From positions 1 through 32,168 of the forward strand of contig JAPYQN010000014.1 of assembly GCA_029941465.1 (NCBI GenBank): 32,168 nucleotides of DNA, written 5' to 3'. Positions within the stretch are counted from its first letter, which is position 1. Every line of letters starts with the position of its first letter. Positions 11,118-21,040 of this stretch are shown here, piece after piece. The notes beneath the pieces were generated by a model. The model was given only the letters and a program-made list of their open reading frames with translations. It made no database searches and was not told where the DNA came from. The position numbers were made by a program, and so were the translations under genes. The DNA comes from Gammaproteobacteria bacterium (lineage in GTDB: Bacteria; Pseudomonadota; Gammaproteobacteria; Steroidobacterales; UBA11654).

Positions 11118-11474
11118 ATGGAAACTTACATTGTGACAATCTACGCTAAAGAAGACCATGCCAATCAAGTAGAACAATATTACAAAGAACTTCAACCGCT
11201 TTATGAAGAAGCCACTGGATTTGTTGGTAGAAAAATTTATCGAGCAAAAACTGGTGCAATGGTGAGTGCTGTCCGTTCAACCTATTCAAAAGAAGAGTTG
11301 GCTAATACTCCAGAAGAAGATCACGATCACGGAGAACACTTTGTTATGATCGAAGAATGGGAGTCTGTCCAAGACCGTATTAACTTTGGACGAGGACTTA
11401 GCAAGGAACATCATATGAAGGTAATACCTTACCTTCTCCCTAATCACTCACATGAATTTTATAAGGGCGTCTAA
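11118..11474 (+). CDS. Small ABM-like (dimeric alpha-beta barrel) protein
   Basis: 118 residues, no signal peptide. The layout fits the antibiotic-biosynthesis-monooxygenase/dimeric alpha-beta barrel fold: a first strand (YIVTIYAK), a helix (ANQVEQYYKELQPLYEE), a middle strand, then the characteristic HFVMIEEWES strand followed by a helix. His residues are frequent (HDHGEH at about 75-80, EHH, NHSHE), which could bind metal. Ribosome site AGGTGG seven bases before the ATG. Function unknown; family members range from heme-degrading and quinol monooxygenases to stress proteins. Its end overlaps the pterin dehydratase gene tail-to-tail by four bases. Confidence 0.6.
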   Translation: METYIVTIYAKEDHANQVEQYYKELQPLYEEATGFVGRKIYRAKTGAMVSAVRSTYSKEELANTPEEDHDHGEHFVMIEEWESVQDRINFGRGLSKEHHMKVIPYLLPNHSHEFYKGV

Positions 11475-11812
11475 GTTAATATATTGTCTATTTTCTTAGC
11501 ACAAATAAAATCATTCTCGGAGAGCCCTCCGATAGCATGAGTAGTATAGACAACCTTACAGGAACCATATTTAACAGTTAAATCAGGGTGATGATCCTCT
11601 GATTCAGCTATCCACGCCACTGCGTTTACAAAGGAAATAGTTTTATTAAAGGTGGAGAATTTAAATTCTTTAGATATTTCTTTGGCGTCATTTGAAATTT
11701 TCCACCCTGGGTCAATGGCTTCAGAAATTTGCTTGGCAGCAGCCATATCAAGTGGCTGCACGCCTCCCTCACAGGGCACACAGTGTTTTTTTTCAAGTTC
11801 ATTTGAATTCAT
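11471..11812 (-). CDS. phhB: 4a-hydroxytetrahydrobiopterin dehydratase (PCD/DCoH)
   Basis: 113 residues, normal for the family. Carries the PCD signature ESEDHHPDL (70-78) with the two catalytic His residues and the GLSENDF segment near the end. It dehydrates pterin-4a-carbinolamine formed by aromatic amino-acid hydroxylases, or acts in molybdopterin or DCoH-type roles. No phenylalanine hydroxylase is in the window. A near-consensus AAGGAGAG ribosome site overlaps the stop codon of the upstream vWA gene, and only 14 bases separate the two coding regions, so it is very probably cotranscribed as the last gene of the envelope operon, an odd combination. Confidence 0.92.
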   Translation of the reverse strand: MNSNELEKKHCVPCEGGVQPLDMAAAKQISEAIDPGWKISNDAKEISKEFKFSTFNKTISFVNAVAWIAESEDHHPDLTVKYGSCKVVYTTHAIGGLSENDFICAKKIDNILT

Positions 11813-11826
11813 CTCTATTCTCTCCT

Positions 11827-12804
11827 TTAAAGATGAGACAAGGCAACGAAAGTGCCGCCATTGTCTTCTGATAATTTTCTCATTAAATGTGCAAATCTTG
11901 CACCATTAGCTGTCCCTGCTTGAGTCGGAAAACCAATGCCATGTATTCTAACTAGTCGGTTACCATAACGATCTGCCTTATTAAGACGAGCAACATATCG
12001 ACTCACAGCTTCAACCGACCCTCTAGGAAAATCATCGCCAAACACATAAATACTAATTTTTTTATCGGTGTCATAGAAAGTAGTGATTGCTTCTGTAATG
12101 CCTTCAACAGGGCTCGAATCGCTATAAGGATTCCAAAATTGAAGGGTACGAGTTATGTTTCGTCTAATTGCAGGTGAATCAGGTATCCAAGAACCACTTG
12201 TTGTCGAGAACATATACTCTCCCTCATCATTAAGAACTTGGATACCCTTCACTGTTGGATAGACAGCAAGTGTTTCAGTGATTTTTTCTATAACAAGATT
12301 CCAAGGGCCTTGAAACATACTCCCTGATGTATCAATCACAAAGATAATGTATTCGCTATCAACTGGAATGCCCCCGACAGTGCTATCATCTATGGGGTTA
12401 TAATCTTTTAACAATCGCTTCATTTCATCCGTCAACATTTGTTTAGCTGACAAAAGACTATTTAACAATCCTGATGATTCTTCTGAGATCGCCTGTGTTG
12501 CACTGAACTCTCCCTGCTTTTCAGATAAATCTCCAGCCAATTTATTTTTCTTCTTTGTATTTTCAGATAATTGCTCCTTGATTTCATCTAGTTCTATATT
12601 CAAAACAGTGGAATCCCCTCTCAATTCATTAAGTTCATTTTCTAACCTAATAACTAATTCCTGCATGTCCTCTTTACTCTTTTGAATGGTGACAGGTTCA
12701 TAAATCTTTGTTATTACTAACAATAAAATAACGGCGCCAAAGCCACAGCAAACCACGTCTAAAAAAGACAAGTTAAAGGTTTCCATGTTACGTCTATGTC
12801 TCAT
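11827..12804 (-). CDS. vWA-domain protein with ExbD/TolR-like membrane anchor (second copy)
   Basis: 325 residues. Short basic N-terminus (RHRR), one TM helix at about 11-32 containing Asp16 in NLSFLDV, a coiled coil at about 40-130, then a von Willebrand A domain with an intact D-x-S-x-S metal site (Asp158, Ser160, Ser162). Orientation by the positive-inside rule puts the vWA domain in the periplasm. The helix resembles ExbD/TolR/MotB, where an equivalent Asp carries protons, but the rest of the protein does not. Its first 25 residues closely match the preceding gene, so the two are paralogues with differing vWA domains. Start overlaps the previous stop by one base (TAATG). Function inferred, not known. 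Confidence 0.82.
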   Translation of the reverse strand: MRHRRNMETFNLSFLDVVCCGFGAVILLLVITKIYEPVTIQKSKEDMQELVIRLENELNELRGDSTVLNIELDEIKEQLSENTKKKNKLAGDLSEKQGEFSATQAISEESSGLLNSLLSAKQMLTDEMKRLLKDYNPIDDSTVGGIPVDSEYIIFVIDTSGSMFQGPWNLVIEKITETLAVYPTVKGIQVLNDEGEYMFSTTSGSWIPDSPAIRRNITRTLQFWNPYSDSSPVEGITEAITTFYDTDKKISIYVFGDDFPRGSVEAVSRYVARLNKADRYGNRLVRIHGIGFPTQAGTANGARFAHLMRKLSEDNGGTFVALSHL

Positions 12805-13898
12805 TAAGGCCAGTCCCTGGATGGAGCCATAAAACTACCCTTTGAGCGAATAGCTAATCGCCAATAAGCTTCAGCAGCTAAAGGATCACCGTCCATTGGA
12901 AACAAAAGAACATTAACAGGGATTGGTGGAAGTTCCCTTAGAGCTTGTTCAAAATACCTAATTCTTTGCTCTGGTTTAACCATTGTCTCTGAGACAGGGC
13001 TGCGTTTTCCTTGTGTAGGCAGTCCGTCAGTTAACAAAAAAATATTATCAGGACGAGGTTGAAGGTCACTAATTTTTTCAAAAGCATTTATTAGACTAGT
13101 CCCGTTTTGTGGAACAGTTGATCTCAATTCTTTAATCGCTTTTTTAATTGTTGTGCCATCATCAACCTCAAGCCACTCTCCCTGAGATTCTTCAATAGCA
13201 CTAACCGCTGATTCATTGAAAGTGTAGATTTGGAATTTTGTTCCACCTTGCAATCGAGTGGTCAACCAGTCGACACTATTCACAGTCTGTCTCCATTTAG
13301 GTGCCTTGATCTTTTGGCTGTCCTCCATGTTTCTATAACGTATAACATTTACATAGGTTCTACCAAGCATGCTAGCAGATGCATCAACCAGAAAAAGAAC
13401 ATGTTTGCCCCCCATTTTTAATTCTGTAAGGTACTGTCTATCTCCTTCTCCCACAAATTCCCTTAGAGATTTTCCAGTGTTTGATGAGTCTAGTTGAGCC
13501 TGGGCAGACATTCTCTTATTAGATTCAGTTAACTGTTTTACATCGGCTTGCAAACGTTTAATATCATCATCTGAAGCAAGTGAATTTGCTTTGTAGAATT
13601 CGATTTCTTTTAGTAGTGCTTCAATAATCTCAGTTAATTCATCAACACTGCCCTCAATGATTGCATTCTCTTGCTCAGTCTTATCCAGTGCATTTGTAAT
13701 TCTTACCAGTTGCTTTTGTTCATTAAAGATCCGTTCTTCTAAAAGCCTGCTTTCTGATTGCAGATCTGAACTGGCCTGATCACTTCTATTTTTTACTTGC
13801 GAGTTAATAATCATAAAAAATAAAATTACTGCACCAAAACCGCAAGCAATTACATCCAAGAAAGATAAGTTAAAGACGTTAAATTGCCTTCTAGCCAT
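12804..13898 (-). CDS. vWA-domain protein with ExbD/TolR-like membrane anchor (first copy)
   Basis: 364 residues. Basic N-terminus (ARR), a TM helix at about 10-32 with Asp15 in NLSFLDV, a long coiled coil (about 40-135), and a vWA domain whose MIDAS residues are all visible: Asp172, Ser174, Ser176, a Thr in NGTSL and an Asp in LLTDGLP. The complete MIDAS predicts a divalent-cation-dependent binding domain, which should lie in the periplasm. The helix has the motif L-D-V at the start of the membrane span, as in ExbD and TolR. It begins 12 bases after the ExbB/TolQ-like gene, which supports pairing of the two as a channel. Paralogue of the next gene. No known system is identified. Confidence 0.83.
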   Translation of the reverse strand: MARRQFNVFNLSFLDVIACGFGAVILFFMIINSQVKNRSDQASSDLQSESRLLEERIFNEQKQLVRITNALDKTEQENAIIEGSVDELTEIIEALLKEIEFYKANSLASDDDIKRLQADVKQLTESNKRMSAQAQLDSSNTGKSLREFVGEGDRQYLTELKMGGKHVLFLVDASASMLGRTYVNVIRYRNMEDSQKIKAPKWRQTVNSVDWLTTRLQGGTKFQIYTFNESAVSAIEESQGEWLEVDDGTTIKKAIKELRSTVPQNGTSLINAFEKISDLQPRPDNIFLLTDGLPTQGKRSPVSETMVKPEQRIRYFEQALRELPPIPVNVLLFPMDGDPLAAEAYWRLAIRSKGSFMAPSRDWP

Positions 13899-13910
13899 AA
13901 AAAATTTTGC

Positions 13911-14711
13911 TCAGTCTCCCTTCAAATGGGTAATAAGATTCTGATCGCAATACTTCTCTGTCTCAAAAATTTGACGTTCTTGCAATAACTGCAATTGGTG
14001 CACCAAAAACATGATGACAATACTGATCAAAAGAGCAATAAAGGTTGAGTTAAAAGCCACACCTAAGTTCTGTGTTACGCCACTAATATCACCATCTACA
14101 GCTCTATGTGCTAAAGATAGAGCAGCACCTATACCTCGTACCGTTCCAATAAAACCAATTGACGGTATTGCCCATGCAATATAACGGATCATTGATAACT
14201 CTGATTCTAATCGGTCGGCCTCAGATTCCACCATGGTGTGTGTGGTCGTAGAAACATCTTGAATATTTTTTGTAGTAGAAAAACGTTTTAATCCATTCAT
14301 AAGAATTCGAGGCAATAAAAGATCTTTTTTAGACTCAGGTAAATTTTCTAACTGCCTAAGAAAATCGTTGATCTCATTGGGTCTGATACTCTGACCTTCT
14401 CTTACCGGTACTAGATCTTCTTGGAGAAGTTTTCTTTCATTGATAGAAGATTGGGCCTTTAAGGTCATAATAGCGAATGCCCAAAGCATAAGGATAAAAC
14501 AAGATTCTTGCTCAAAATCCCTAACAATGACATAAAATGATCGTTCAGGAATATAATTAATATCTTGTGCAATCATTGCCTGCTGTTCTTGGATAATTGA
14601 AGTTGCCTCTGGTCTAACAATGGAGACATAAAAAGCATGGACCAATATGACAGAAATTATCAATGCAAATCCTTGATATAAAAATTCTTTCGAAAGATTC
14701 TGACCGTTCAT
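13911..14711 (-). CDS. MotA/TolQ/ExbB-family proton channel subunit
   Basis: 266 residues with TM helices at about 11-32, 69-85, 175-198 and 217-238 and a cytoplasmic region of roughly 90 residues between the second and third. The third helix carries the family signature PSIGFIGTVRGIG (183-195) and the fourth the AFNSTFIALLISI segment corresponding to the conserved Thr-bearing helix of ExbB/TolQ. In known members, five such subunits surround two ExbD/TolR/MotB helices and convert the proton motive force into movement. The likely partners here are the two downstream vWA proteins. An extra N-terminal helix compared with TolQ makes the topology closer to MotA-like variants. No TonB, TolA or OmpA-domain protein is nearby. 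Confidence 0.85.
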   Translation of the reverse strand: MNGQNLSKEFLYQGFALIISVILVHAFYVSIVRPEATSIIQEQQAMIAQDINYIPERSFYVIVRDFEQESCFILMLWAFAIMTLKAQSSINERKLLQEDLVPVREGQSIRPNEINDFLRQLENLPESKKDLLLPRILMNGLKRFSTTKNIQDVSTTTHTMVESEADRLESELSMIRYIAWAIPSIGFIGTVRGIGAALSLAHRAVDGDISGVTQNLGVAFNSTFIALLISIVIMFLVHQLQLLQERQIFETEKYCDQNLITHLKGD

Positions 14712-14725
14712 GTGATCTCTCCTAT

Positions 14726-15001
14726 TTATATATCGGATGGAAAGCTGACTGCAACATCTGCTGATAGTGACTCTGAAGGAGTAAATTCTTCAAGTGTTTC
14801 TTCCTCATAGGCTGCCTGAATTCTTTCCAATTCTTGTTTTAATTCTCTATCAATCTCTTCTTGGCTTTTCGTTGTAACTGATTCCATATCAATTGTCTCA
14901 TCTTCTTGAGAAACAACAAAACTGCTAGTTAAACAACAACTCACTACAAGCACGATTAAATATTTCAATATCCCTGTTTGCATAATCTTCAAATTATTCA
15001 T
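14726..15001 (-). CDS. Small exported protein of the envelope operon
   Basis: 91 residues. Signal-type N-terminus (hydrophobic ILKYLIVLVV segment at about 11-20, cleavage probable near residue 31), then an acidic, Glu-rich stretch predicted to be helical (about 45-75) and a short tail. It contains no domain I recognise. Its start overlaps the end of the FGE-domain gene by eight bases and it sits 14 bases before the channel gene, so its position inside the operon argues that it is real and acts with its neighbours in the periplasm. Two Cys lie at about 22-23, within the signal region; without a clear lipobox I do not call it a lipoprotein. Confidence 0.7.
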   Translation of the reverse strand: MNNLKIMQTGILKYLIVLVVSCCLTSSFVVSQEDETIDMESVTTKSQEEIDRELKQELERIQAAYEEETLEEFTPSESLSADVAVSFPSDI

Positions 15002-17423
15002 TATCAGTATACCTTGCTATCCTAAAACCGACATCTAATCTACCTTGGGTTCCATAATCTCGGTAGGCATATCTTAATGCCGTAATGGTTGAATGACGCC
15101 AACTGGATCCCTTGATAACCCTGACAGTCCCATCATCTGGACCATATGGGTCCTTATCAAGTTGATCAAGGTCTCGATTAACTACAGCATAATAATCATT
15201 GACCCATTCAGAAACATTACCTCCCAGATCATAGAGACCGAGTTTATTCGTCTCAAATTTAGCCACAGGTGAAGACACTGGATAACCGTCCCAATAATTT
15301 GTTAACACATTGGTCATAAGGCTTTCCGCTGATTCATCAGCATAATTTCCTGAGTTTTCAGTGGGAGGCATACTTGCTCCCCAAGGATACTTTTGTACTC
15401 CGCCACCTCCATTATACCGTGCCACCCATTCCCATTCAGCTTCTGTCAACAAACGATAGCCATTGGTCATCGGTTGGATTAACTGATGTTGACCGTCAAC
15501 TACTCTATAAGCTGGATCCAATGCTTCTCTCTTGCTTAACCAATTACAATATCCAACTGCATCTTCCCATGTGACCATCACTGTTGGATGAAGTCCATTT
15601 GATAGTTCTCTATATGTTTCTGCTCCTGAGGTATGTTTTGGTTTAAATTTTCTGAATTCATTGTTCATTATTTCTCTAGTGCCAACATAAAACGGTTTAG
15701 TAATTTCAACTAATCTTTCACTTTCATTCGACTGTCGCCCTTGGGTTCTTCTGGGGGTTCCAATAATAAACTGTCCGCTAGATATTAACCTCATTTGAAG
15801 GCCTTGAGAGGTTTTAATGGACTGGGGCATAGCTGCTAGCACTGCCTCTTCTGGAGTTAATAATTTTATTTCCAGTGTTTGATCAAAACCAGGAGTAGGT
15901 TTTACATTAATATCCTGTGTTAAAAGCCCATCCTTTTTGATAGTCAATATTTGCTCCTTAGCAATCAGGTTCACTTTAAGAGGAATATTTCCTAAACTCT
16001 TATCACCTTGGATTACCTCAGCATCTTGAGTGCCTTGGATTAGAATTCTTCCAAACATTGGTTGTAACTCTAAATTTATAACCTCAGAATCTTTTTCCAT
16101 GGATCTCAATGTTTCAACAGTCTTTAATTCAATGATCTGATCCATAGCTTTGTAACCAGGTTTAGAGACACTAACACTATGAGCAACTAAGGGTTCGAGA
16201 TCTATTTCAACAGGTGTCATCCCTCGATACACTGAGTCTATATTTACAGAGGCACCCTTAGGGTAGGAAACAATAGTAAGTTTGCTGTCTAAGCGACTCA
16301 AGTTAAATGGTTCTAAGACAATAGTTTCTCTCGCCTTTACAGCTATCTCAGTTGTAAAATTCTTGTAACCATTTTTTTTAATCCCAAGAACATGTTCACC
16401 TTCTATGAGATCAAGGTCTAAGGGAGTCAATCCTACATTTTTACTGTCGATAAATATTTCAGCCCCACTTGGTTTAGTGTCTATCTGAACATCAGCCCAA
16501 GCAGGCTCGAGATCAAAAATAAATTCTTGTTCTTCACCCATCCCATTGATGACCAATTGCTCCTTAATCGGAAAATACTTTTCAAATCGCAACTCAACAT
16601 CTCTTGTTCCAGCTGCCAAAATAGCGCCCAAACCAAGCCAGTTGTGTCGACATTCCTCTAAGCTTATCTCTACATCTTCACAAATAGATGGCGTTGATCT
16701 TTTTCCCTCGAGATACAGCTCAGAATCAACATCGGGTCGGGTTGTGAATGTAATAATACCTGGTGTTTTTTTTAATTTGATATCAATAACTTGTGAGGAT
16801 TCCTTATTGATTTTAATATCCAAGTTGCTGGGATAATAGCCAGGTCTAGAGTAATTAGTCTTATATTCACCAGGCCGAAGCAAAAATCGTCCACTAATTT
16901 TTAAATGTGGGAAAAAACCACCAGAGACTGAAACTTTAGCATCAGTTGGCATTGTGTTTATTTCGACAGCTTTAGAGGTAAATAAATAAAATAAAAAGTA
17001 GCCAACTAAAAATACTAGTCCTATAGCAATTCTCTGAACGGTCTTGTTTTGGAAAATACTCTCACTTTGGCGTTTTTGAAACTGCGTTGGTTGCTCCTCT
17101 AAAGAAACATTCTCAACATTAAACTCTATTTGATGGGTAGATATTTTAAACTGGACTCGCTTATCAGCCACAATCAACTCGTCACCATCTTTGATCCAAT
17201 AATTTCCAGAAAATTCATTGTCATTGATTGTGGTGTCAATACCGGAGTTAATCTTTTGCAAGACCAAACGATCATCAATTAAATCGATGATCATAGCTAT
17301 ACCTAATGAAAGCGAGCCAATGACCACAATATCTGAGTTCAAATCTGTACCTATTTTAATAGGTAGGTCCTCTTGGCTTAATAAGATCTCTTTATTATTT
17401 TCTCTAAGGATAAAATTCGTCAT
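14994..17423 (-). CDS. FHA-like / TM / PEGA repeats / FGE-sulfatase-fold fusion protein
   Basis: 809 residues. An N-terminal cytoplasmic FHA-like domain (about 1-103) is followed by a TM helix (131-149). A periplasmic part has several PEGA-type repeats: clear ones at about 310-360 (GLTPLDLDLIEGEH), 380-430 (GMTPVEIDLEP) and 455-505, and weaker ones at 155-300. A C-terminal FGE-sulfatase/SUMF1 domain spans about 541-805 with GYRLLTEAEWEW and GGNVSEWV. The segment where formylglycine-generating enzymes carry their cysteines (GSSWRHSTITALRYAYR, 772-788) has none, so copper-dependent formylglycine formation is unlikely; a binding or structural role is expected. FHA domains usually bind phosphothreonine, but this one is degenerate. 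Start overlaps the TPR gene's stop by four bases. Confidence 0.85.
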   Translation of the reverse strand: MTNFILRENNKEILLSQEDLPIKIGTDLNSDIVVIGSLSLGIAMIIDLIDDRLVLQKINSGIDTTINDNEFSGNYWIKDGDELIVADKRVQFKISTHQIEFNVENVSLEEQPTQFQKRQSESIFQNKTVQRIAIGLVFLVGYFLFYLFTSKAVEINTMPTDAKVSVSGGFFPHLKISGRFLLRPGEYKTNYSRPGYYPSNLDIKINKESSQVIDIKLKKTPGIITFTTRPDVDSELYLEGKRSTPSICEDVEISLEECRHNWLGLGAILAAGTRDVELRFEKYFPIKEQLVINGMGEEQEFIFDLEPAWADVQIDTKPSGAEIFIDSKNVGLTPLDLDLIEGEHVLGIKKNGYKNFTTEIAVKARETIVLEPFNLSRLDSKLTIVSYPKGASVNIDSVYRGMTPVEIDLEPLVAHSVSVSKPGYKAMDQIIELKTVETLRSMEKDSEVINLELQPMFGRILIQGTQDAEVIQGDKSLGNIPLKVNLIAKEQILTIKKDGLLTQDINVKPTPGFDQTLEIKLLTPEEAVLAAMPQSIKTSQGLQMRLISSGQFIIGTPRRTQGRQSNESERLVEITKPFYVGTREIMNNEFRKFKPKHTSGAETYRELSNGLHPTVMVTWEDAVGYCNWLSKREALDPAYRVVDGQHQLIQPMTNGYRLLTEAEWEWVARYNGGGGVQKYPWGASMPPTENSGNYADESAESLMTNVLTNYWDGYPVSSPVAKFETNKLGLYDLGGNVSEWVNDYYAVVNRDLDQLDKDPYGPDDGTVRVIKGSSWRHSTITALRYAYRDYGTQGRLDVGFRIARYTDNE

Positions 17424-18925
17424 ATTTTTTCTCTACAGATTACTGTAAAGCTCTGATCTGATTGGTTGGGGTTAACTTTGAACCTTAAGGTTGTGTCTCT
17501 GTAGCCCATTCTCATTCCTTTTGCTGTGTATATACCCGGTTTTAATAAAACTGACTGACGTTCAAATAGTCCAAAATCACCTTTTTTGTATATCACTACA
17601 TTTGTTTTTTGATCAGATATTAGAGTAACTTGGACAGGTGTGGAAGCAACCTTTAATACTTGCTGCATTTGGCTAACTTGCTCAATCAGCTCTGGGCCCT
17701 TATTAAGAATTGCCTCAGCTTGGTTGAGCGTTGCTTGTGCTTGGGAAAATAATTTGTCATCATTCAGTTGCTCTGCTTTAGCAACAAATGAAATCATTTG
17801 GTTTATTAGCTTAATCCTCTGCCTAACTCTGAAAAGACTGTCTTTAACTTCCTGAATATTAGGGTCTAAAGATAGTATGGTTTCATAATAAGACTCAGCG
17901 TTATCCCACTCTTCATTAACTTCAGCAATTAGTGCTTTGTATTTCAACGACTTCGTCAACACCATTCTTCTTTGGATTTCTAATTCCTCAATCGCTTGTT
18001 GACCCTCTTTAGAGTCAGGAACAATAGATAAACTTTTTCTAAAAAAAACCTCAGCTTCTTCAAATTTTTGTTCTTTCATCAATGCATAACCCTCAGACAA
18101 AGACAGCTGAAATTGCTCCTCATCATTAGACACAATAGATGAAGTCAATCCTTCCAAAGCTGGCTTCCAATTAGAATCAATTGCCAATGCTGCTTGAAAA
18201 GCTTCGATGGATTCAACCCATTCTCTTTCTTCAGCTAAACGTTTACCTTGATTTGAAAGGGCTATAACTTTGTCAAGTTTTAAGGCACGATCAAGCCCTG
18301 CTTTGGCTAACTGATTAGCCCCATCGATCGCTAGGGCCGTCTCATAATTTGATATAGCTAGTGGTTTATTTTCTTGCAGAATGGCTTCTTGTCCTTGGTT
18401 TAGAGATTGTTGCAAGATTGATGGAACAGTAACCTCAAGGTCTATAAGTAATTGCATAGCAGTACGATAACTTTCTGCAGCAATATCATAACTCCTATTA
18501 ATGTAAGCTGTGTCACCTTGCTGTTGTATTGTATTGATTGTTTTCCATTCTGACTGGGCCCAAATTTGGACACCGCTTAATTTTAATTCATCAATTTTAG
18601 CGAGTAATTCAGATAATAAAGCTTGTGCGATAGGTTTTTGAGCTAACACAGCTTCATCTAATTGTATTTGCTCTTCTATGGTTTCATTCGAGTTTTGATT
18701 GGTAGTTAATGCCTGATCTTCATTAACCATTCTAGGCAAGAGAAACACCACGAGAATTAAAATCAATGCCGTGCTTCCTAATAAGGCATAAGCAATTATT
18801 GGTCTAACTGTTTGTTCTTGACGACGATCTAATCTTTGCTGGTAGATCGTTTTCTTCTCAGACTTCTCTGCATTATTATCATTCGATTGAATAGACTCTG
18901 ATTCTTCAGACATAATCTCTTTCAT
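17420..18925 (-). CDS. Membrane-anchored TPR protein with C-terminal PEGA-like domain
   Basis: 501 residues. Charged cytoplasmic N-terminus, TM helix at about 42-64, then a periplasmic array of tetratricopeptide-like helices (repeating units such as AISNYETALAID, SIEAFQAALAID, EAEVFFRKSLSI, NAESYYETILSLD). It ends in a beta-rich segment of about 80 residues (KPGIYTAKGMRMGY) that resembles a PEGA domain. TPR arrays mediate protein contacts, so this may be a periplasmic scaffold for the complex. Start is ATG at 18925; a second in-frame ATG four codons on (18913) has an AGAG before it and could be used instead. It begins six bases after the upstream gene and overlaps the next by four. No enzymatic motif is visible. 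Confidence 0.82.
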   Translation of the reverse strand: MKEIMSEESESIQSNDNNAEKSEKKTIYQQRLDRRQEQTVRPIIAYALLGSTALILILVVFLLPRMVNEDQALTTNQNSNETIEEQIQLDEAVLAQKPIAQALLSELLAKIDELKLSGVQIWAQSEWKTINTIQQQGDTAYINRSYDIAAESYRTAMQLLIDLEVTVPSILQQSLNQGQEAILQENKPLAISNYETALAIDGANQLAKAGLDRALKLDKVIALSNQGKRLAEEREWVESIEAFQAALAIDSNWKPALEGLTSSIVSNDEEQFQLSLSEGYALMKEQKFEEAEVFFRKSLSIVPDSKEGQQAIEELEIQRRMVLTKSLKYKALIAEVNEEWDNAESYYETILSLDPNIQEVKDSLFRVRQRIKLINQMISFVAKAEQLNDDKLFSQAQATLNQAEAILNKGPELIEQVSQMQQVLKVASTPVQVTLISDQKTNVVIYKKGDFGLFERQSVLLKPGIYTAKGMRMGYRDTTLRFKVNPNQSDQSFTVICREKI

Positions 18926-18931
18926 ATAGGT

Positions 18932-20122
18932 TTATTGAACTGATGGAGTAGAAATTAGAAAGCCAGTTTCATCGGTATAAATCTGTTTGAGCAATTTCCT
19001 CCACTCTAAGAATTTTTCTTGGGCTGATCCAGTTAATCTAATAGTTTGCCCTTCCAACTCAATAATTAATGGTTCAGCTTCTGAGTCAAATGCTGTGCCT
19101 AATTCTTTCATAGATTCTTTATATATTTTTGCTTCTGAGGCTTTACCAAAACCGCTTTTCATTGCTTCCATTCCACCATAAATAGCCATTTGTTGCATTG
19201 TGCTACTGGCTTGACTGTCACCATCAGAAACAATTGCCCCTATTAAGGCCGTTATTCCAAGAATTTGCCTTGTACGGGCTGATTTTTTCAATTCTTCATA
19301 AGTGATCATGTCTTCTCTAGACAGCTTTCTCCAATCCTCGTAAGGCTGAGAAATATTCTCATATAGTTGAGCATAGTATTCATTAAGAGTGTCTAGAAGA
19401 AGAAACTCTCTCTCTTGAATATTATAAACTCGTTGCATAATACTATCCCCATCATCTGGAAGACGTTGAGCCTCATAGATGTTTTTTTTGTTCTTGGTTA
19501 AATAGTCCTTATACACCCCAGGAATAAGTTCAGCAGCAAATCGTATGTCACCAATTTCATTAATTCTTTGAAGTTGTTGTTGTTTGAGATCTTGCTTAAT
19601 CTTAACTAAATCATTAGCAATTTTATTATATATATTCTGATACGGATCTTGAGTCAAATCTCGTCTCTTGCTGTAAGAACTCTGGGCTACTGTTGAAGAA
19701 TAAACCTTATTAACCCATTCTTTGCCTGTGATATCCCAGGCACCAATTCTGATAGAAACATCTAATCCGTTTGAAACTTCAATACGACCAGAGATAATAA
19801 GATCGATTGCTTCAGATTTTTCAGGTAAGACCCAAACCCCTCCCCAAAAGCCAGTATCTTGTAGAGTTTTTTTAAGATGATAAGGGATATATCTGGCTTC
19901 AGCCTTTCTAATTTCAGGAAAAATCAGTTCGTTGTCTTCATCAGGTATATTAGGATCAAACAACAAGATACCAATATCAAGAAGCTCCTCCTCAGGAATT
20001 TCTATCTGCGCCCTCTCTAGTGAAATCTTTTCATATTGAATCGTTTTAGCCTGTAGCAAGCCACTAACTAAACACACTAGCAAGGAACAAATTATTTGAA
20101 TTCTTTTTGATTGGGCTCTCAT
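18932..20122 (-). CDS. Exported protein of unknown function (envelope operon)
   Basis: 396 residues. Sec signal peptide at about 1-25 (hydrophobic ICSLLVCLVSGLLQA). The segment DLIISGRIEVSNGL followed by IRIGAWDITGKEW recalls the N-terminal domains of TolB/CsgG/LpoB-like envelope proteins, but I cannot name the family. The middle is strongly helical (KQDLKQQQLQRI, DTLNEYYAQLYENI), and a Gly/Ala-rich stretch (about 292-330) could contact membrane. No lipobox. The start overlaps the lipoprotein gene's stop by four bases, and six bases separate it from the TPR gene. Probably periplasmic or outer-membrane associated, acting with the other operon products; that is inference from position. Confidence 0.7.
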   Translation of the reverse strand: MRAQSKRIQIICSLLVCLVSGLLQAKTIQYEKISLERAQIEIPEEELLDIGILLFDPNIPDEDNELIFPEIRKAEARYIPYHLKKTLQDTGFWGGVWVLPEKSEAIDLIISGRIEVSNGLDVSIRIGAWDITGKEWVNKVYSSTVAQSSYSKRRDLTQDPYQNIYNKIANDLVKIKQDLKQQQLQRINEIGDIRFAAELIPGVYKDYLTKNKKNIYEAQRLPDDGDSIMQRVYNIQEREFLLLDTLNEYYAQLYENISQPYEDWRKLSREDMITYEELKKSARTRQILGITALIGAIVSDGDSQASSTMQQMAIYGGMEAMKSGFGKASEAKIYKESMKELGTAFDSEAEPLIIELEGQTIRLTGSAQEKFLEWRKLLKQIYTDETGFLISTPSVQ

Positions 20123-20985
20123 TTTTTGATACCCATGTGTTTCCTATATTCATCCCAAAGAGCTGCTCTAATCATTGGATCCTCTTCCTGAATAGCTGCT
20201 TCTCTAATTTGCCTAGCAATAACATCTTCGCCGGTTCCATCCATTGGAATATCATCAGGAATTCTTTCTTTTATTTTTTCTTGGTCACCCGTTGTGTTCT
20301 CAGATGCCTTGTCCAACTCCGTCTCTGAACTGTCTTCATCTTGGGTTTGCCCTGCTGTTGCTGAAGTTGATGAATTGCCTGATTCTGATGACTCAATATC
20401 CAATGGTCCATCTAAACCACCCTGTTGAACAGCATCAGCATCAGCACTCTCTTGTGAAGTCATACCGCCAAGAGTTTGATTTGCAGCAGCAATAATGACA
20501 CGTTCACCAGCTATTTCATTATCAAAATCACCTAATGATTCATCAAAAATAGAAGATGCTGACTGCCCAGACCCTAAATCAGATGACATGACACCAGATC
20601 CTGACTGACTATCTTCACCCTGATTGGATGAGGCATTGCTTGTGGTCCCACTATTATTCCCAGAAGCAGCATCAGAACTCTGATTACCACCTGCAGATTG
20701 GCCTCCAGATGTTGAGGAGGAACCGGATTGTGAAGATTGTGAGCTTGATTGTGAAGATTGTGAGCCTGATTGTGAAGATTGTGAACCACTCGGTAAAGAC
20801 GGTGACGGCATAGAAATTCCACCACTAGTAGGAGGAGATGATGAACCAGAAGTTGATGGCATCGATGGAGATGGCATTCCGCTTGCAGAACTAGGAGACG
20901 ATGGATTAGATGCTCCACCACTCATTTGCTGGACTGCACACCCATTAATTGTGATTAAAACTAGTATTAATACAAATTTTTTCAT
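20119..20985 (-). CDS. Ser/Gln/Gly-rich low-complexity lipoprotein
   Basis: 288 residues. A lipoprotein signal peptide ends in the lipobox I-N-G-C (Cys16), so it should be lipid-anchored, probably to the outer membrane. Residues about 22-160 are almost entirely Ser, Gly, Gln, Pro and Asn, including three near-perfect seven-residue units (GSQSSQS type). The C-terminal 50 residues are ordinary and charged (ERIPDDIPMDGTGEDVIARQ), likely a folded helix that contacts partners. A long flexible tether between the membrane and a small domain is the plainest reading. First gene of the operon, behind an extended -10 promoter. Low complexity makes homology calls unreliable; the reading frame is supported by the four-base overlap with the next gene. 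Confidence 0.75.
   Translation of the reverse strand: MKKFVLILVLITINGCAVQQMSGGASNPSSPSSASGMPSPSMPSTSGSSSPPTSGGISMPSPSLPSGSQSSQSGSQSSQSSSQSSQSGSSSTSGGQSAGGNQSSDAASGNNSGTTSNASSNQGEDSQSGSGVMSSDLGSGQSASSIFDESLGDFDNEIAGERVIIAAANQTLGGMTSQESADADAVQQGGLDGPLDIESSESGNSSTSATAGQTQDEDSSETELDKASENTTGDQEKIKERIPDDIPMDGTGEDVIARQIREAAIQEEDPMIRAALWDEYRKHMGIKK
20726..20788. repeat. Three tandem 21-bp copies inside the lipoprotein gene
   Basis: Copies at 20726-20746, 20747-20767 and 20768-20788, differing from each other at only a few positions (core gattgtgaagattgtga). Each encodes one seven-residue Ser/Gln unit on the minus strand. Since 21 is a multiple of three, gain or loss of copies would lengthen or shorten the tether without a frameshift. 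Confidence 0.9.
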
Positions 20986-21031
20986 TGCTGACGTCTCTTT
21001 CTCTTATCGCCAGCTTAGCAGAACTAAACCC

Positions 21032-21040
21032 ATTATATCA
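21032..21040 (-). promoter_or_regulatory. Extended -10 promoter of the envelope operon
   Basis: The minus strand reads TGATATAAT, a perfect TATAAT (21037-21032) with the TG extension, 47 bases upstream of the lipoprotein ATG. No good -35 hexamer is seen at 16-18 bases, which fits an extended -10 type of sigma-70 promoter. Predicted transcription start is near 21025, giving a leader of about 40 bases. All downstream gaps in the run are 14 bases or less, so this may drive all nine genes. Confidence 0.5.

Follow-up and report, generated by a model that had tools for sequence, protein, structure and literature searches.

The window analysed here is the whole stretch of 32,168 nucleotides of contig JAPYQN010000014.1 (assembly GCA_029941465.1), from a gammaproteobacterium of the Steroidobacterales (UBA11654). 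Eight open reading frames on its minus strand, at 11827-20985, form one operon that encodes a channel subunit of the MotA/TolQ/ExbB family (EXB), two membrane-anchored vWA proteins, two further membrane proteins with TPR or PEGA and FGE-type domains, a short protein and two exported proteins. An earlier note, made from the sequence of this DNA, had described eight minus-strand genes whose overlaps and spacers never exceed 14 bases, and this is exact: from LIPO at the upstream end to vWA2 at the downstream end, the junctions measure -4, +6, -4, -8, +14, +12 and -1 bases. The end given in that note, 21040, lies 55 bases past the last ATG. The parts of the locus are the following.

20119-20985, minus strand: LIPO, a lipoprotein with the lipobox ING-C, a linker rich in Ser and Gly, and a C-terminal helix that is conserved
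18932-20122, minus strand: EXP, an exported protein with an alpha/beta domain whose fold appears TolB-N-domain-like and a long helical hairpin
17420-18925, minus strand: TPR, an inner-membrane protein with one transmembrane (TM) segment (43-61) and a C-terminal TPR domain that is probably periplasmic
14994-17423, minus strand: FGE, with a weak FHA-like N-terminus, a TM segment at 132-150, and PEGA domains and a C-terminal FGE fold that are probably periplasmic
14726-15001, minus strand: SMALL, a short protein with an N-terminal hydrophobic segment and a conserved C-terminal peptide
13911-14711, minus strand: EXB, a channel subunit of the MotA/TolQ/ExbB family with the pore residues Thr190 and Thr223
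13899-13910, minus strand: the EXB/vWA1 junction, site of an extra gene of about 1.35 kb with an Hsp70 nucleotide-binding domain (NBD) fold and an FHA domain in most relatives
12804-13898, minus strand: vWA1, with an N-terminal TM helix bearing Asp15, a coiled coil, a vWA domain with a metal-ion-dependent adhesion site (MIDAS) and a C-terminal DWP
11827-12804, minus strand: vWA2, with an N-terminal TM helix homologous to that of vWA1 and bearing Asp16, a coiled coil and the MIDAS DTSGS

Hydropathy places a single N-terminal TM segment in each of vWA1, vWA2, TPR and SMALL, the internal one of the FGE protein at the position listed, and signal-type N-terminal segments in EXP and LIPO. The Pfam search of the window proteins yielded no family for LIPO, EXP or SMALL.

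The channel subunit and its probable vWA partners

EXB matches the Pfam family MotA_ExbB (PF01618) with an E-value of 1.7e-15 (57.3 bits versus a cut-off of 22.9), in agreement with the ExbB/TolQ/MotA-like subunit named in the earlier note. Its two pore threonines, located in the last two TM helices, are both invariant in 81 of 81 sequences, and a sequence search of the PDB with EXB gave no match. In the window's genome, MotA_ExbB is represented by five genes and ExbD by three. The ExbD genes were found only on contigs C1 and C11, next to the other four ExbB genes, and none in the window; EXB is therefore the one ExbB gene without an ExbD, and it has a vWA pair in its place. The two further ExbB sets of this genome, at G000 C1:171051-172388 and C11:24110-25911, are separate from EXB, and each comprises a long ExbB-like gene (frame of 466-474 aa), a short one (frame of 173-208 aa) and one or two ExbD genes.

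The aspartate of the TM helix is kept in 77 of 77 sequences of vWA1 (D15) and in 66 of 67 sequences of vWA2 (D16). The N-terminal helix is common to both proteins (hhalign 99.5%), as would be expected for a heterodimer housed in a single pore. While the vWA domain of vWA1 is recognized by Pfam VWA_2 (E 1.7e-6, 29 bits versus a cut-off of 27), that of vWA2 is sub-threshold in Pfam, yet its MIDAS motif DxSxS is invariant (67/67). The metal-site pattern of both proteins consists of DxSxS and a later invariant Asp, and the C-terminal DWP of vWA1 is also invariant. In the PDB, the sequence of vWA1 retrieved essentially coiled coils, and the ExbD/TolR profile (PF02472) had no match in the vWA proteins in the Pfam search. 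The earlier note had put forward the vWA proteins as ExbD/TolR/MotB-like partners of the channel, and the replacement of ExbD/TolR by the vWA pair as partner of EXB is well supported by the conserved aspartates, by the two pore threonines of EXB and by the lack of an ExbD gene in the cluster; its label of "effector" for the vWA domains found no support. Taken alone, the motor part, a pentamer of EXB driven by the proton motive force (PMF) and turning a vWA1/vWA2 heterodimer, is highly likely.

Conservation of the gene set and its accessory gene

A scan with one genome per species recovered at least 572 EXB relatives. Loci were counted from the best 80, and presence was scored only where the flank was long enough on the relevant side (loci with room). 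The best 80 stem mainly from Gammaproteobacteria, and they include Acidobacteria-type records (L069, L071 and L077) as well as records labelled Desulfobacterales/Desulfobacteraceae (L067 and L084). In loci with room, the FGE protein was present in 67/67, vWA1 in 70/70, TPR in 59/60, EXP in 50/51, SMALL in 69/74, vWA2 in 64/69 and LIPO in 43/48. Seven core genes, namely LIPO, EXP, TPR, PEGA/FGE, EXB, vWA1 and vWA2, stand in identical order in 38 of the 43 loci with room. This is a conserved apparatus far more than chance would produce, and the count of genes kept together bears out the earlier proposal that they belong to one machine. The five exceptions in order form one group (L019-L022 and L026), in which there is an insertion before EXB and vWA2 is missing at the locus; in the genomes G022 and G035 of this group (L197-L201), vWA2 was found elsewhere in the genome. 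The stretch inserted in L019-L022 and L026 amounts to about 4 kb and lies between SMALL and EXB.

With the vWA1 profile, the cluster was detected in 35 of 40 relatives, in 29 of 370 class-sampled genomes and in 11 of 397 phylum-sampled genomes. A divergent subtype (about 230 bits), found in G140 and in genus g375 of another class, contains the same seven genes contiguously (L189, L190 and L193), and SMALL was not found in these three loci.

In 70 of the 80 loci, EXB and vWA1 are separated by an additional gene of about 1.35 kb. Pfam recognizes an FHA domain at the C-terminus of its product (E 3e-12). The AlphaFold2 (AF2) model of the product in L036 has a predicted local distance difference test (pLDDT) value of 90, and its N-terminal part was matched by Foldseek to the NBDs of DnaK (E about 1e-14, TM-score 0.70 by target length), that is, to an Hsp70-NBD fold. 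Intact phosphate-binding motifs DLGTT and DLGGG are missing from the product, the positions reading NDAGI-like and HLDxxLHR-like; as its phosphate loops thus depart from those of active members, the protein is likely to be a pseudo-ATPase regulator. None of the 11 genomes in the window's family has the gene, whereas 16 of the 19 further genomes sampled from the order do; it was not found in L189, L190, L193 or L075 either, which makes it accessory to the seven-gene core. At L075:9971-11269, in a relative outside the window's family, the EXB-vWA1 junction is likewise devoid of the Hsp70/FHA gene.

Several additional copies and irregular loci were observed. L191 (G018:C132) and L192 (G031:C9:27500-47000) are divergent second copies of the cluster, each in the same genome as a first one; here LIPO stands not at the start but at the end where vWA2 lies, and the Hsp70/FHA gene is missing. 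G009 has an intact vWA1-vWA2 copy on C13 and, at C15:1-1355, another stretch of both genes that is interrupted by in-frame stop codons and is either a decaying duplicate or a contaminating contig. In a close relative (L009:9656-10665), vWA2 is split over two overlapping reading frames by either a frameshift or an assembly error. Downstream of vWA2, at 11118-11812 of the window, come a gene for pterin-4a-carbinolamine dehydratase (11471-11812) and a small one (11118-11474). The cluster is followed by related genes in the close clade as well, so that the border seems to be stable within this clade.

Envelope proteins and the loss of Tol-Pal in the host family

The FGE protein matches the Pfam families FGE-sulfatase (E 4.7e-37, 128 bits) and PEGA (E 1.2e-33, 115 bits). 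In the window, the catalytic motif region of its FGE domain reads VIKGSSWRHSTITALRYAYRD. The catalytic Cys pair is absent from this domain and from the six family members whose motif was compared, and a catalytic formylglycine-generating role was rejected because these cysteines are missing. The best NCBIfam model of the domain is GldK, at 102.5 bits versus a cut-off of 350, and structures of PorK were observed among its PDB matches. With such a score, the parallel with type IX secretion drawn in the earlier note is fair as an analogy only. The same note had described this protein as an FHA/TM/PEGA/FGE-fold protein, and the TM, PEGA and FGE parts of that description stand. As for the FHA part, the window's protein has no Pfam match and a single relative, L024, is just above the cut-off (21.5 versus 20.7 bits); to judge from its sequence, this FHA domain would be degenerate at best.

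The second inner-membrane protein, TPR, matches Pfam TPR_2 (E 7e-17). SMALL ends in the alignment with a conserved peptide of about 20 residues, EFxPSExxSADxAVxFPxDI, which is perhaps a binding peptide. In LIPO, the conserved C-terminal helix follows the pattern DDxVARQIREAA...DP..R..LWxEYRK. EXP is, by its lipobox, a lipoprotein in most relatives, and the alignment indicates that the Cys was lost in most of the window's clade. The idea that lipoproteins form the outer-membrane end is supported. The AF2 model of EXP (pLDDT 79) was compared with the PDB by Foldseek; the best match was the TolB structure 4r40 (E 6.3e-4, TM-score 0.2 over the whole chain), and TolB chains accounted for 17 of the top 19 matches. 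The PDB sequence search with EXP gave no match.

The genomes of the window's family f1 (G000, the window's own, and G001-G010) are streamlined, with sizes of 1.1-1.6 Mb. TolQ, TolB and Pal over the cut-off were found in 0 of these 11 genomes, the window's own included, versus 29/29 for TolQ, 29/29 for TolB and 28/29 for Pal in the genomes sampled from other families of the order, the remaining genome reaching 109 bits for Pal. As the 11 genomes are 64-92% complete, a chance joint absence of TolQ, TolB and Pal is not credible. All 11 have kept vWA1 or vWA2. In the class sample, the cluster was present in 2 of 30 TolQ-less genomes versus 27 of 340 TolQ-positive ones. Being about equally frequent with and without TolQ, it is not a general substitute for Tol-Pal, and a general replacement was found to be unsupported class-wide. 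A replacement in family f1 alone may be hypothesized. Against the TolQ equivalog model, EXB itself scores 29.4 bits for a cut-off of 221.

Proposed mechanism, known systems and competing explanations

The motor type is already known, and the pairing of the vWA proteins has been predicted. A recent study (PMC12204202; Mol Biol Evol 2025, msaf138) reports in its main text a TPH-vWA family that co-occurs with tolQ and not with tolR/exbD. These proteins form heterologous pairs and possess a TolR-like transpore helix with an essential conserved Asp, and AlphaFold 3 (AF3) models with 5:2 stoichiometry set the Asp pair inside the Thr ring (Fig. 4c-d; Idiomarina family). The family, whose seed is Idiomarina (Idiomarina loihiensis), is found in Proteobacteria and is devoid of the SHLS motif. 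A second, rim-bound vWA family is described in other phyla, for which a gliding role was suggested; the sole remark on neighbours, about a TPR gene, concerns that family. The cluster of the window likewise displays a heterologous vWA pair beside a tolQ-like gene, no tolR/exbD, the Asp helix and the pore Thr, and since the described features match point by point, the window is most likely a member of the predicted family. The view of the earlier note that no named system has this set has therefore to be given up for the core, which is already predicted in that paper with its AF3 5:2 model. LIPO, EXP, FGE/PEGA, SMALL and the Hsp70-FHA gene, on the other hand, are not described in its main text. 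Literature searches on the combined domain names, with preprints, most subscription journals and supplements outside their reach, returned only this paper as relevant; in accessible papers, the complete conserved gene set is undescribed, and so are its Hsp70/FHA accessory and the Tol-less family that hosts it. What is new here is the Hsp70-NBD and FHA gene, the usual lipoprotein nature of EXP and its apparent TolB-N-like fold, the FGE domain without catalytic cysteines and the Tol-less family that keeps the cluster.

The gene set, its order and conservation, the domain assignments and the absent ExbD partner are direct observations, from which a model of the whole can be proposed that is reasonably probable. 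The product of the operon would be a trans-envelope machine that runs on the proton (or ion) motive force. EXB would form a pentamer around the N-terminal TM helices of the vWA1/vWA2 heterodimer, and ions passing between the helix Asp (D15/D16) and the Thr190/Thr223 ring would turn the heterodimer, as in MotAB, ExbBD and TolQR. The two periplasmic vWA domains would stand in for the periplasmic domain of ExbD/TolR/MotB, and their metal sites may grip and release a periplasmic scaffold made of the PEGA/pseudo-FGE and TPR proteins, both anchored in the inner membrane. This scaffold would in turn hand the force to the outer-membrane lipoproteins LIPO and TolB-N-like EXP. In most relatives, the cytoplasmic Hsp70-NBD-like/FHA protein would provide a regulatory input, which has been lost in the window's lineage. 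Rotation, the 5:2 stoichiometry, metal-dependent gripping, the transmission of force as far as the outer membrane, the cargo and, with them, the biological function are what we infer.

Some points weigh against this model. The vWA helices are not tied to ExbD by sequence profile (hhalign 3.5% and 0.3% for the N-termini), and homology of vWA1 and vWA2 to ExbD is not claimed because neither is linked by sequence. The comparison of EXP with the TolB sequence profile (0.9%) is not significant, though it is in register with the N-terminal alpha/beta region, so that the likeness of EXP to TolB is at the level of the fold. The role given to the scaffold and the lipoproteins is deduced from topology and gene order, and the window's genome is a draft that is 92% complete.

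Other machines have to be considered for the same parts. In type IX secretion and gliding, where GldLM works with GldJ/GldK (PorK), a PMF motor, an FGE-fold protein and outer-membrane lipoproteins are also combined, and the GldK and PorK matches of the FGE domain point in this direction. The pseudo-FGE/PEGA protein would then build a periplasmic ring or channel scaffold in the way of PorK/GldK, a GldLM-like motor would energize export and the lipoproteins would be the outer-membrane part of a secretion or surface-assembly machine. This is unlikely, since the domain stays far under the GldK cut-off, the operon contains neither a large outer-membrane translocon gene nor a lipoprotein form of the FGE protein, which is TM-anchored and fused to PEGA, and EXB belongs to the ExbB/TolQ family. 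The cluster could also be a Tol-Pal-like tethering or constriction machine that has assumed the work of Tol-Pal in the Tol-less family. The absence of TolQ, TolB and Pal from family f1, where every genome retains a vWA gene, favours it, and the cluster shares with Tol-Pal (TolQRAB-Pal-CpoB) a TolQ-like pentamer subunit, a TPR protein, lipoproteins and the arrangement in one operon, and EXP has an apparent TolB-N-like fold. It differs by a vWA pair instead of TolR, by the lack of TolA and of the TolB propeller, and by the lack of a peptidoglycan-binding OmpA/Pal domain in the Pfam search; moreover, the cluster is about as frequent without TolQ as with it in the class sample, and most owners carry both systems, which leaves this explanation rather improbable.

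A machine for motility or adhesion, in which the motor would move vWA domains that work as adhesins or partners of focal adhesions in the manner of AglRQS/Glt/CglB, would agree with the common ligand-binding role of vWA/MIDAS domains, with the two probable outer-membrane lipoproteins and with the gliding role suggested for the rim-bound family in PMC12204202. It is improbable, however, as the vWA domains have their anchor in the inner membrane, no relatives of Agl or Glt were found among the family matches of the window proteins and the cluster is retained in streamlined genomes of 1.4 Mb. That same rim-bound family, together with the three ExbD genes elsewhere in the genome, could suggest a rim position for the vWA proteins, as TolA/TonB-like transducers of a motor borrowing its ExbD from another locus. 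The cluster indeed has a channel subunit of the same family as ExbBD-TonB, and a helix Asp in the same position, but it has no ExbD or TonB, the two ExbB/ExbD sets of the genome are separate and every ExbD already adjoins its own ExbB pair; an invariant Asp within the membrane and vWA genes in pairs agree with a place in the pore, as does the lack of the SHLS motif reported for the pore family in the main text of PMC12204202. Such a rim position is quite improbable. Finally, Zorya also employs a MotA/ExbB-type motor with specialized partners (ZorAB), and EXB has a weak match to ZorA (16.7 bits, E 7e-4). A phage-defence motor is nevertheless very improbable: no match to ZorB, ZorC, ZorD or ZorE was found among the tested proteins, and the cluster is a core locus, near-universal in the order with conserved synteny, unlike patchy defence islands. 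Zorya or another defence system was rejected, and the ion-driven machine with a vWA heterodimer in the pore of EXB is retained as the best-supported model.

Bacteria use PMF-driven 5:2 motors for nutrient uptake, division, motility, secretion and phage defence. Another branch of these motors with a ligand-binding vWA pair as inner partner, and a parts list conserved across phyla, would represent a sizeable gap in envelope biology. On a bolder and doubtful reading, it would be a third general trans-envelope energy transducer beside Ton and Tol-Pal, with fixed parts (paired pore vWAs, PEGA/pseudo-FGE and TPR scaffolds, TolB-N-like and Ser-rich lipoproteins and often an Hsp70-like/FHA controller), and in family f1 it would be the only non-Ton motor coupling both membranes, in charge of the outer-membrane maintenance otherwise due to Tol-Pal. 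The Tol-Pal-less family that keeps the cluster and the lineages without the Hsp70/FHA gene constitute natural experiments separating the core from the accessory parts, and the parts list indicates which proteins merit experimental study.

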